Assembly (NCBI GenBank): GCA_028281825.1
Contig: JANQJC010000025.1
Span: 1-64,000 of the forward strand
Direction: 5' to 3'
Source of the DNA: Flavobacteriales bacterium
GTDB taxonomy: Bacteria; Bacteroidota; Bacteroidia; JANQJC01
DNA length: 64,000 nucleotides
In this document: piece after piece, positions 54,565 through 64,000 of the stretch
Numbering within the stretch: the first letter of the stretch is position 1
Layout: each line of letters begins with the position of its first letter
Notes under the pieces: generated by a model
What the model saw: the letters and a program-made list of their open reading frames with translations, nothing else
Databases searched by the model: none
Told to the model about the DNA's origin: nothing
Translations under genes and position numbers: made by a program

Positions 54565-55770
54565 ATGTTCTTCAACAACTACCAAATATTCATATACATC
54601 AGCCTCTTTGTAATTGCATTTGGGCTGGTGAGGTATTTTACTAAGCTCAGGCTGGTAAGAAACCTGGTGCTCAGTTTTGCCAATTTAATAGTGTTGCTCT
54701 TTTTTGTGAAAGAGCACAGTCTTATTGTCATTTCTGTGCTTAGCCTTTTGGTATTTGTTGCAGGGCAGTTATTGCAACGGCGCAACTTGAACTGGCTGCT
54801 TTACTTCATGGTTAGCCTGATGATAGTACTCTTTAGTATTCGCAACTATCCATATGTGCAGCAGCTACTGGAGCAGAGTTACTTCTCCTTTGTAAACACA
54901 CCCATACTCTCCGTACAAAAGGTTGGTTTGTCTTACATCTTGTTTAGGTATGTGCACTGGCTGGTGGAGTCATCCAAAAGAACTATCCATCAATCAGACT
55001 TTCTCACTTTTCTTAGTTATATATTCTTCTTTCCAACCTTTTTGGCAGGGCCTATAGACCAATACAATAATTTCCATTACTGGTTGGGTAATGCAAGGTT
55101 TATATACAATCGTAGCCTCTTTTTTGCGGGTGTGATGAGGGCATTTATTGGTGCAGTGAAAACACTGGGTGTGGTCCCCTTTGTAATTGACTACGCTACT
55201 GACTACAACCTTTTGTTGCCTTACTTCTCACCTGCGATGGCAGTTTTTGTCGGCGCACTTTTCTATTCATTGTATATTTATTTTGATTTCTCGGGCTATA
55301 GTGATATTGCTATTGGTACAGCTTACATGCTGGGTATCAAAATACCTGAAAACTTCAATAACCCATACTTCTCAGATAGTTTGAGGGAGTTTTGGCGCAG
55401 GTGGCATATTACCTTTTCATTGTTCTTGCGGCTTTATGTTTTCAAGCCATTCATCAATCTTTATAATCGTATTATCAATCCCAGGCACAGGCTGTTGGTA
55501 TCTATCATTAGTTATTTGTCCACCTTCTTGGTGTGCGGCCTGTGGCATGGAGAAACCATCAATTTCGCCTGGTGGGGTTTGTGGCATGGCGTTGGATTGT
55601 CCATCAACAAATTATGGACAGTAAAAGTAGTTGAGAAAAGCAGCTTTGGCTCCTCGTTTTGGTATCGAATGGTAAGTATACTAGTTACTTTTATCTATGT
55701 GAGTATAGGCTGGATATTTTTTCACTACAAGGCGAATGAACTCGGCAAAATTTTTGAATTGATATCATGA
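54565..55770 (+). CDS. MBOAT family O-acyltransferase (DltB/AlgI-like)
   Basis: Multi-TM; FPTFLAGPIDQY, DFSGYSDIAIGTAYMLGIKIPENFNNPYFSDSLREFWRRWHITFSLFLRLYVF, LVCGLWHGETINFAWWGLWHG. Confidence 0.95.
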   Translation: MFFNNYQIFIYISLFVIAFGLVRYFTKLRLVRNLVLSFANLIVLLFFVKEHSLIVISVLSLLVFVAGQLLQRRNLNWLLYFMVSLMIVLFSIRNYPYVQQLLEQSYFSFVNTPILSVQKVGLSYILFRYVHWLVESSKRTIHQSDFLTFLSYIFFFPTFLAGPIDQYNNFHYWLGNARFIYNRSLFFAGVMRAFIGAVKTLGVVPFVIDYATDYNLLLPYFSPAMAVFVGALFYSLYIYFDFSGYSDIAIGTAYMLGIKIPENFNNPYFSDSLREFWRRWHITFSLFLRLYVFKPFINLYNRIINPRHRLLVSIISYLSTFLVCGLWHGETINFAWWGLWHGVGLSINKLWTVKVVEKSSFGSSFWYRMVSILVTFIYVSIGWIFFHYKANELGKIFELIS

Positions 55771-56879
55771 AACTGATGCACACCTTCTATAAAACTTCAT
55801 CTCTTGCCCGCAATGGTATCTTCTTGCTGGTAAGTGTTGTTGTGCTCTTGGGGGTGCTATTTATTCCTGACTTTAAGTGGAAGGAAACTTCAAGGCAAGT
55901 ATATTCTATACCGGGCATTAATCTCAAGTATGATGATGAACCTTTTGTTAGCCACTTTTTCAAATCAATCAAAGCTAATGATGGTTATTTGATATTGGGC
56001 ACTTCAGAGTCGTCTTCTTTAAAAGGGGGTAATTATTACGATTACCTGAACAGTGATATTGAGGTACGGGAGAGTTTCTCTGTGCTGGCTGGTGCAGGCC
56101 GTACTGGTGGTTTGTACATTCCATTGTTTATCAATCACAAAAAAGAAGTGAAAGGGCTTAGGGTCATCTACCTGATAAACCCCGTGTATTGGGGTAGCAA
56201 TTTGAGCCAGGTGAATAAAGAGTATTGGAGCCGATACAGTAACTACGGCTACAGTTCTGGTATCGAATTGAGCGAAAAGGAAAAGGCATTCTACCAACCT
56301 GTTCAAGAGTATTATGATAAAATCAACCTGTTTGAAAAGGCTACTTACACTATCGAGTATTGGATAAGAAATGTTCGGGAGCCATATTTTAATCATTTAA
56401 CTTTTTTACTTAATCCAAAAAAATATGAGGAAAGGATTACCTATGTGAAAAAGGGAGCTAAAGATTTGAGCGCATATCCGCTTTTCGGACAAATTGATAC
56501 TGAAGAAATTGACACAAGCAGAAGCCATGCTTTTAATTTTCACAACCCAGATTGGTTCAAATCCGTTGACTTGAAAGGGGATTACAGGTATGAGGAACTA
56601 TCAGCTTTTGTTGACCTGTGCCAATACCTGGATATTCAGGCTACCTTTATTTTAGGGCCGTATAATGAGCGTTTTATCAAGCATTATGATGTCGGTAGCT
56701 TAAGCCCATACGTGGATGTAACTCAAAAACTAAAGACCATGCTCGAAGAAAAGGGCGCTGACTATATTGATGCAACGGATATCTCACAGGCTCCCGGGGC
56801 ATTTATTGACCACCAGCATCATTCAAGTTATGGTGGTTATCTGCTGTATCAAAAGATTAAACAACACTTAGAAAAATGA
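55767..56879 (+). CDS. DltD-like membrane-anchored SGNH-type protein
   Basis: N-terminal TM; GTSESS nucleophile-like block; C-terminal DHQHHSSYGGYLLYQKI (D..H block); ATGA overlap with the MBOAT gene. Confidence 0.7.
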   Translation: MKLMHTFYKTSSLARNGIFLLVSVVVLLGVLFIPDFKWKETSRQVYSIPGINLKYDDEPFVSHFFKSIKANDGYLILGTSESSSLKGGNYYDYLNSDIEVRESFSVLAGAGRTGGLYIPLFINHKKEVKGLRVIYLINPVYWGSNLSQVNKEYWSRYSNYGYSSGIELSEKEKAFYQPVQEYYDKINLFEKATYTIEYWIRNVREPYFNHLTFLLNPKKYEERITYVKKGAKDLSAYPLFGQIDTEEIDTSRSHAFNFHNPDWFKSVDLKGDYRYEELSAFVDLCQYLDIQATFILGPYNERFIKHYDVGSLSPYVDVTQKLKTMLEEKGADYIDATDISQAPGAFIDHQHHSSYGGYLLYQKIKQHLEK

Positions 56880-56989
56880 AAAAGTTGGTTTATAAAATAG
56901 TAGTGAAGTTGATAATACTGGTGCTATTGGTATACCTATTAATGTATTCCAGCGGGGAGGATATCCCATATATCTATGCAGGTTTTTAG
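56876..56989 (+). CDS. DltX-like membrane microprotein (37 aa), not in ORF track
   Basis: MKKLVYKIVVKLIILVLLVYLLMYSSGEDIPYIYAGF*; one TM helix and terminal PYIYAGF; ATGA overlap with the DltD-like gene. Confidence 0.75.
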   Translation: MKKLVYKIVVKLIILVLLVYLLMYSSGEDIPYIYAGF

Positions 56990-58771: not shown

Positions 58772-59443
58772 ATGATAAAAGCAATCATCACCGGAACCAC
58801 AGGCATGGTAGGCAAGGGAGTTTTGCTCGAGTGCCTGGAAAATGAAAATGTAGAGTCTGTTTTGGTAGTCAATCGAAGGTCGCTGGGCATGCAGCATCCT
58901 AAGCTGAAGGAGGTCATCCATAGGGATTTCTACAATATCGATGCGATTAGAGAAGAGCTAAAAGGTTATAACGCTTGCTACTTCTGCATGGGAGTATCTG
59001 CGGTTGGCTTGTCCAGCGAGGAGTATTACAAACTCACCTATACACTCACTACCCATTGGGCAGATACCCTGGTGGGGTTAAACCCAGATATGACCTTTTG
59101 TTATGTATCAGGTGATGGGACATCAACCGAGGAAAATAGCCGAATGGAGTGGGCTAATGTAAAAGGTAAAACAGAAAACTACATTCTCTCCTTGCCTTTT
59201 AAGGACAGTTATGCCTTTCGCCCCGGGATGATACAACCACTAAAAGGAGTGGTGCCCAGCTCAAAGCTTTATAGAAGACTAATTACCATTTTCAAGCCCT
59301 TGTTTGGATTGGTGAAAGCCATCGCCAAAAATTCTATTACCACCAGTGTAAATATTGGCTTGGCAATGATACATGTTACCTTGAAGGCTTCAGGGAAAAA
59401 GCACCTGCACAATAAGGATATTAACCAACTCGCGGGTGAATAG
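58772..59443 (+). CDS. NAD(P)H-binding atypical SDR protein
   Basis: KAIITGTTGMVGKGVLLECLEN; LPFKDSYAFRPGMIQPLKG. Confidence 0.87.
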   Translation: MIKAIITGTTGMVGKGVLLECLENENVESVLVVNRRSLGMQHPKLKEVIHRDFYNIDAIREELKGYNACYFCMGVSAVGLSSEEYYKLTYTLTTHWADTLVGLNPDMTFCYVSGDGTSTEENSRMEWANVKGKTENYILSLPFKDSYAFRPGMIQPLKGVVPSSKLYRRLITIFKPLFGLVKAIAKNSITTSVNIGLAMIHVTLKASGKKHLHNKDINQLAGE

Positions 59444-62279: not shown

Positions 62280-64000
62280 CTACTTCCTCACTACTTTTAT
62301 ATTCTCACAACCAGCTTCAGTGCACCAACGCACGAAGTATACCCCTGAGTCACTTTCAGCCATTGAGATTATCTTTTTGCCTTGCGAAGCACGAAAGCTC
62401 TCGTGAAGGATTTCCTTACCAACAACATCATAAACGTTCAGTTGAACCATCCTTTCATTAGGCTCTGCGTATTCAATTGTAAGTCGGTCACTAAATGGGT
62501 TGGGATAAACCTTAAGCTCACTTTTTTCTATCTCAATCACTGAAATTGGCTCTGCCCCGCTGTATATCTTCACGTTGTCAATCACCAAACTATTTCCTCG
62601 CCTATTCTTTCCTACAAATTTTACCAGTATATCACTTCCATCCGCGAACTGCGCAATATCAATAATGGTATCATTCCAGTGTTGGGGCAGACTGGGTAAA
62701 AAGCCTTGCACTTTGTCTTCATCTACCACAGTATTCAAGTCCTCACCACCTGCAAAAAAAACACGACTCCAATTTTGTCCGCAGTCATTTGAAATATCAA
62801 TACCCACTGTATCACTCAGTACATTATGTCTATGTTGATAAGCATAGTTAAACTTAAGCCATAAGGGGCCACCATTTGGCGTCGTTATTCTTGGGGTCAC
62901 AATCTCATCAATTTGATTGTGGGGCACTTGGCTAAAAAACCTCATATACATGGAGGTTTGTCCCCCATCAACACCTAAAGTAGATATGGTATCCCATGTA
63001 AAGTTGAAGTTTGGGTTGTTGATATACCAATGTGAGTGCCCTAGGTTCACAGCTTCAAACTGCTCAATAAATGGTATAGACTCAACACCCCTGTAATTGA
63101 AACGCGCAATACGAGTGTTGTTTATTGAGTCTAATTCAGTAATGTTTGCAACGGGTTCCACATTCACCATAAGTTCGTAATTGCTGCTTTGCGGCATAGT
63201 CAGATTCGGTAGGATTATAGTGGTGCTTTGCCCAGCTTGTAATGTTCCAGTCCAGTTGTAGGTGTTGGTATTTGTACCTACCAGGCCATAATAGATAGTA
63301 GCATCGGTAATGGTACTATCACCCAGGTTTTCAAGCTTGATTGTAGGTGTTATGTTGTCATCACAAGTATAACTGAAGTTAGGGTCTTGTATTTCAGTAA
63401 TGGCTATATCAAATGGTGAAGTATGCGGTGGAACAGGAGTATGGCTCTGCGCCAAATAGTTGAAAGCCGCCAGTACATCAATCATGCCCCTACCATAACT
63501 GTTGTCTTCTCCCACTGGGCCTAGGTCAATTGCCGTATAGTATAGCGCCAAAAGTATTTCCTCGCCTGTTAGGTAGGGAAAAGCTTCTTTCAGCAAGAGT
63601 ACTGCACCAGTAGCGTGTGGCCCCGCCATCGAAGTTCCTTGATAGGAATCATAACCTCCGTTGACTACTGCGGAGCGTACATTAACACCTGGGGCAACAA
63701 CTTCAGGTTTTATTATCTGTATGCTATCTCCCCAACAGGTAGTTGGTCCGCGGCTAGAGAAGCTGGCTATTGGCAATGAGTCATAATAATGATTCACGGC
63801 ACCCACAGTAAACGAATTTACCACTCCGGTATTTATATGAAATGGGTAGGACATAGTGCTATCCCCAGGTCCGTCATTGCCCGCAGAAGCCACGTTTGCT
63901 ATACCAGCTGCTTCAATAGTAGTGAGCATATCTGCAAAATAACCTGTGCACAAAGTGGTGTCGTCAACTACTACAAAGCCCCACGAGTTATTAATGGCAT
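62280..64000 (-). CDS. subtilisin-like (S8) protease with T9SS sorting tail (5' truncated by window edge)
   Basis: AINNSWGFVVVDDTTLCTGYF continues open to the window edge; ASAGNDGPGD, GTSMAGPHATGAVLLL; C-terminus LKVYPNPFSDRLTIEY...GVYFVRWCTEAGCENIKVVRK. Confidence 0.92.
   Translation of the reverse strand, partial: AINNSWGFVVVDDTTLCTGYFADMLTTIEAAGIANVASAGNDGPGDSTMSYPFHINTGVVNSFTVGAVNHYYDSLPIASFSSRGPTTCWGDSIQIIKPEVVAPGVNVRSAVVNGGYDSYQGTSMAGPHATGAVLLLKEAFPYLTGEEILLALYYTAIDLGPVGEDNSYGRGMIDVLAAFNYLAQSHTPVPPHTSPFDIAITEIQDPNFSYTCDDNITPTIKLENLGDSTITDATIYYGLVGTNTNTYNWTGTLQAGQSTTIILPNLTMPQSSNYELMVNVEPVANITELDSINNTRIARFNYRGVESIPFIEQFEAVNLGHSHWYINNPNFNFTWDTISTLGVDGGQTSMYMRFFSQVPHNQIDEIVTPRITTPNGGPLWLKFNYAYQHRHNVLSDTVGIDISNDCGQNWSRVFFAGGEDLNTVVDEDKVQGFLPSLPQHWNDTIIDIAQFADGSDILVKFVGKNRRGNSLVIDNVKIYSGAEPISVIEIEKSELKVYPNPFSDRLTIEYAEPNERMVQLNVYDVVGKEILHESFRASQGKKIISMAESDSGVYFVRWCTEAGCENIKVVRK

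Follow-up and report, generated by a model that had tools for sequence, protein, structure and literature searches.

The dra operon of Bordetella is a Gram-negative dlt operon, and the relay model for DltX is said to stem from the main DltX paper, which appeared in Nature Microbiology in 2023. DltX relays D-alanine from DltB to DltD through the tyrosine of an FXYXXF motif (PMC12148441). In PatA and other MBOATs this motif is fused to the enzyme, and acyl-Tyr relay chemistry has been established for both DltX and PatA (PMC12148441). According to a 2025 paper, no DltX-like microprotein occurs in MBOAT/SGNH pathways other than Dlt, where the MBOAT itself bears the motif as a fusion (PMC12148441). 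DltX has been described as a Firmicute protein, and dlt genes occur in a few Gram-negatives, among which Dickeya and Pectobacterium were named (PMC5541007). The account of DltX from which the initial annotation of the present locus started (a microprotein, its motif and a tyrosine relay) agrees with published descriptions (PMC12148441, PMC11035591).

Organization of the three-gene cassette

The window (the whole 64,000-nt stretch of DNA that was analyzed, from JANQJC010000025.1) contained an MBOAT gene, a DltD-like gene and a microprotein gene, in this order, forming one overlapping three-gene unit with the following features:

54565..55770, + strand: DltB-like MBOAT, 401 aa (Pfam MBOAT, E = 9.8e-24; best predicted-fold match DltB, 6bug/8jem)
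55546..55548, + strand: codon of the MBOAT catalytic His328 (GLWHG), invariant and aligned with DltB His336
55767..56879, + strand: DltD-like SGNH acyltransferase with an N-terminal TM helix, 370 aa (Pfam DltD, 34.9 bits; cut-off 22.7)
56004..56006, + strand: codon of Ser80 of GTSE in the DltD-like protein, invariant in 9/9, putative nucleophile by analogy with the SGNH family
56876..56989, + strand: DltX-like microprotein MKKLVYKIVVKLIILVLLVYLLMYSSGEDIPYIYAGF, 37 aa, conserved in 9/9 genomes
56897..56947, + strand: the one TM segment in the microprotein, spanning approximately residues 8-24 (a 17-residue stretch gave the hydropathy maximum of 2.85; boundaries set by eye)
56969..56986, + strand: C-terminal shuttle hexapeptide Y-I-Y-A-G-F, with Y34 and F37 unchanged across the nine homologues (FXYXXF is a known motif, PMC12148441)
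56975-56977, + strand: codon of the central Tyr34 of the microprotein, invariant in nine homologues

The microprotein ATG overlapped the stop of the DltD-like gene by 4 nt (ATGA, 56876-56879), and the DltD-like gene overlapped the MBOAT gene in the same manner (55767-55770). The ATGA-coupled 37-aa ORF proposed in the initial annotation was thus recovered with the same extent and sequence, and its single TM helix was borne out by the one hydrophobic segment. The positive-inside rule would place the basic N-terminus of the microprotein inside. The host had been taken for a member of the Bacteroidota, which fits the Por_Secre_tail protein encoded at 62280-63953 in the window, a sign that the genome belongs to a T9SS-bearing bacterium. 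A small NAD-epimerase-like gene was located near the cassette in the window (58772-59443) and a similar one in genome G261 (L096:2889-3557), which may be due to chance.

In the window's genome, no MBOAT other than that of the cassette was found. The model of the cassette MBOAT, of moderate confidence (pLDDT 62), matched DltB best among PDB folds (6bug, E = 1.6e-8; 8jem) and human HHAT less well, and its His281 and His328 aligned with His289 and His336 of DltB. The 12 best PDB fold matches of the DltD-like model (pLDDT 80) were all DltD (3bma, 6o93, 7dxm, 6pfx), with PatB far behind. GTSE (Ser80) and D348xxH351 were invariant in the nine DltD-like proteins, and Asp348 and His351 of this DxxH are putative triad partners of Ser80. 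The MBOAT scored 185.9 bits against the DltB equivalog TIGR04091, below the 375-bit cut-off; this score was dropped as a sign of DltB identity since fused MBOATs scored alike (173-194 bits). Sequence searches of the PDB with the microprotein or DltD profile returned nothing useful.

Two cassette MBOATs from other genomes were longer (633 aa, L096:7268-9169; 636 aa, L105:10241-12151), with about 230 extra C-terminal residues that appeared beta-rich by eye; this region had no Pfam match in the L096 protein. A fused acyl-carrier domain in the longer MBOATs of G261 and G181 was rejected, no ACP being recognized by Pfam.

Conservation of the microprotein and its likeness to DltX

The window held 580 ORFs with lengths of 25-75 aa, of which only the microprotein ended in [FY]xYxxF, against an expected count of 0.14 from residue frequencies. 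The motif alone was therefore just mildly unusual and a conservation test was needed. The DltD-like protein was searched against 395 genomes of the same class, which gave five other genomes with the cassette, and searches around one of these gave three more, i.e., nine cassette genomes with the window's own. Family- and order-rank searches around the window's genome yielded no further cassette genome, and a phylum-wide draw of genomes added none.

Conservation in relatives, on whose failure the reading had been staked beforehand, was found in all nine cassette genomes: each encoded a single-TM ORF of 36-40 aa whose ATG fell inside the DltD-like gene, at its 3' end. The nine C-termini were PYIYAGF, EYIYANF, VYLYANF, SFMYADF, PYMYLEF, SYLYIDF, PYLYLEF, SFLYANF and SYLYANF. 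The terminal P-[FY]-I-Y-x-x-F initially read from the window accordingly stood in its core, as [FY]-[ILM]-Y-x-x-F in 9/9, with Tyr at the first motif position in seven; its proline did not, this residue being P, E, V or S. L21, Y34 and F37 were invariant in the nine-sequence alignment. A spurious ORF, i.e., a hydrophobic stretch left open by chance after dltD, would be in line with the short length and the mild rarity of the motif; it is extremely improbable given that length, place, overlap and motif were kept in nine genomes at 24-49% protein identity, with motif codons varying synonymously (e.g., TAT/TAC and GCA/GCC/GCG/GCT). It is conservation, rather than the motif alone, that makes the ORF significant. 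A conserved gene of fewer than 40 codons is likely to be missed by usual gene calling.

In an order of 42 genomes, all eight that carry the DltD-like gene, and only these, matched the microprotein profile strongly (E = 5e-14 to 6e-18); the best match among the remaining 34 had E = 0.009. The co-occurrence (one-sided Fisher 8e-9) shows absence elsewhere more than presence, because these eight genomes had built the profile. In genome G306, the DltD-like frame of the cassette carried an in-frame TAG near the contig edge (L095:1-1440), and the MBOAT was off the contig.

A contig scan with the window's MBOAT returned only generic fused MBOATs, and 80 such relatives from a public genome collection, of which 79 were complete at the C-terminus, were used as controls. 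All 79 carried the motif at their own C-terminus, typically as PFIYFRF or PFIYFQF and in one case (L044) in the relaxed form PMYAAF, and none of the 7,122 small ORFs around the 80 control loci ended in [FY]xYxxF. No fused C-terminal motif was found in the cassette MBOATs (that of G306 being off its contig), the window's protein ending in NELGKIFELIS. As the controls were fused and the cassette MBOATs were tail-less and accompanied by the microprotein, the motif was present for each MBOAT either fused or next door. Both kinds adjoined in genome G236 (L094:5890-8239), where the microprotein gene was immediately followed by that of a 472-aa MBOAT ending in GSQFIYFQF. This fused-motif MBOAT was accompanied by a second gene (326 aa), likewise downstream of the cassette. 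On a Leptolinea (Chloroflexota) plasmid (L122:2780-4379), a 47-aa ORF ending in PLWIYQGF preceded an MBOAT without fused motif, and no SGNH gene was seen beside them.

In the tree of MBOAT cores, the fused type fell on one side of a branch with 100/99 support, and cassette MBOATs grouped together in a clade of their own (99/98), apart from Firmicute DltB; the union of cassette MBOATs and DltB was not firmly supported (85/59). A first tree that included the C-terminal columns displayed the same split.

The microprotein matched the Pfam DltX profile (PF12459) to its last position (43/43) with 18.2 bits (E = 0.0018), below the gathering cut-off of 25 bits, and is therefore called DltX-like rather than DltX. 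The microprotein of the closest relative reached 14.3 bits, and the other six tested gave no Pfam DltX match. Comparison of the microprotein profile with authentic DltX gave 82% (E = 1e-5) in a gap-free alignment; the controls gave 33% for fused MBOAT tails and 4% for an unrelated TM segment. Once the last seven residues were removed, the likeness dropped to 11%. The motif and the position it occupies thus account for the likeness, which leaves descent from DltX unproved by the peptide: from its sequence, common descent and convergence cannot be told apart. Two DltX traits were found nonetheless, a single TM helix with an FxYxxF-type motif at the very C-terminus (9/9 homologues) and, by gene order and folds, encoding alongside DltB- and DltD-like partners.

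Probable acyl donor, proposed relay and acceptor

Were the trio an ordinary Dlt D-alanylation system, D-Ala-DltC would be the donor, and dltA and dltC would lie elsewhere in the genome or in an assembly gap. The DltB- and DltD-like nature of the partners is in keeping with this, as are an assembly that is 96% complete in 144 contigs and the region of the DltC-docking helix HC of DltB, whose length was kept in cassette MBOATs and shortened in the fused MBOATs sampled. However, no DltC above cut-off was obtained in six cassette genomes; five had no match at all, and the sole match belonged to a separate operon in G306. DltA-like ligases were likewise absent from the window's genome, which gave only partial weak matches (best E 2e-14), and from G236 and G261 at a threshold of 1e-20, while the other cassette genomes except G306 gave just distant adenylating enzymes in the DltA search. 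No ligase or carrier gene was recognized beside the cassettes whose neighborhoods were read. In addition, the basic residue at the position of DltB Lys312, which contacts DltC (PMC11035591), was lost in 8/8 cassette MBOATs read. These negative results for DltC (six genomes) and DltA (the window's genome) make a D-Ala-DltC donor unlikely, and an ordinary Dlt system is improbable. The missing DltA and DltC together with the loss of the Lys312 basic residue favor acyl-CoA or a housekeeping acyl-ACP, one of which is probably the donor; D-alanine is unlikely as the acyl group. The lack of DltA and DltC, which the initial annotation had overlooked, is the more unusual part of the cassette.

Genome G306 holds both systems, since besides the cassette it carries, on contig 96 (L127:6504-12140), a separate dltC-dltD-dltX-dltB-dltA cluster with a 48-aa microprotein ending in FIYQQF, followed by a proline-dehydrogenase-like gene. 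The DltB of this cluster displayed Asn (GLWNG) in place of the catalytic His336.

Small TM subunits often merely stabilize complexes, and the microprotein could likewise be a structural or assembly subunit only, its tyrosine not acylated and the SGNH protein acylated directly by the MBOAT. This is unlikely, as conservation lies in the C-terminal motif rather than in the helix, and as the motif occupies the very C-terminus in 9/9 homologues, an arrangement shared with DltX and PatA, which relay by acyl-Tyr. The role first proposed for the microprotein, an acyl-relay peptide equivalent to DltX in a Gram-negative cassette, is on the other hand supported by its conservation in nine genomes, the DltB and DltD folds of its partners, the MBOAT without fused motif and a likeness to DltX exceeding that of the controls.

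A DltB-DltX-DltD-like relay with an acyl-Tyr34 intermediate, working without DltA and DltC in a Gram-negative T9SS-bearing host, is thus quite likely; its chemistry, complex, donor, acyl group and acceptor are what we infer. The three overlapping genes would encode one inner-membrane machine, in which a cytoplasmic thioester would supply the MBOAT with the acyl group, to be passed through the enzyme's central tunnel to Tyr34, a residue close to the C-terminal, extracytoplasmic end of the microprotein. This tethered peptide could then swing to the periplasmic SGNH protein and hand the acyl group over to Ser80, from which the SGNH enzyme would esterify an envelope glycan. In genome G411 (L105:12197-17343), the cassette was located within a nonulosonic-acid-type glycan locus containing genes for NeuB, a cytidylyltransferase, an aminotransferase and polysaccharide export, which points to a surface glycan as acceptor there; the neighbors of the window's cassette gave no clue to the acceptor.

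Comparison with described MBOAT-SGNH systems

The peptide shares with DltX of the Firmicute dltXABCD operons its small size, single TM helix, basic N-terminus and extracytoplasmic C-terminus with an FxYxxF-type hexapeptide, as well as its genetic partnership with a DltB-like MBOAT and a DltD-like SGNH protein. It differs in length (36-40 aa, against about 43-50 for DltX) and position, being encoded last and overlapping dltD whereas DltX is encoded first; unlike the Firmicute dlt operons, the cassette has neither dltA nor dltC and resides in a Gram-negative host.

The PatA/PatB and AlgI-type pairs of Gram-negative O-acetylation have in common with the cassette the proposed transfer from an acyl-Tyr hexapeptide to an SGNH serine (PMC12148441) and the lack of a carrier protein. 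In these pairs the MBOAT itself bears the hexapeptide, fused to it by way of two additional TM helices, while that of the cassette is encoded by a separate gene, and the cassette MBOAT and SGNH folds are nearer to DltB and DltD than to PatB. The dlt operons of Dickeya and Pectobacterium (PMC5541007) also bring DltB- and DltD-like proteins into Gram-negatives, but they include genes for the D-Ala ligase and the carrier, both of which are missing from the cassette.

No description of a free-standing shuttle without DltA/DltC was found in the open-access literature, and the published generalization that non-Dlt MBOAT/SGNH pathways have no DltX-like microprotein (PMC12148441) does not hold for the cassette. 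It is fairly probable that the cassette represents a third arrangement of bacterial MBOAT-SGNH acylation, in which a DltB/DltD/DltX-like trio without DltA/DltC transfers an acyl group from acyl-CoA or a housekeeping acyl-ACP to a Gram-negative surface glycan. If so, the separable shuttle peptide would be independent of D-alanylation, which opens the questions of the donor needed by a DltB-like MBOAT and of the relation between fused and split shuttles. The cassette separates a free-standing shuttle peptide from the D-Ala/DltC donor, two elements so far always described together.
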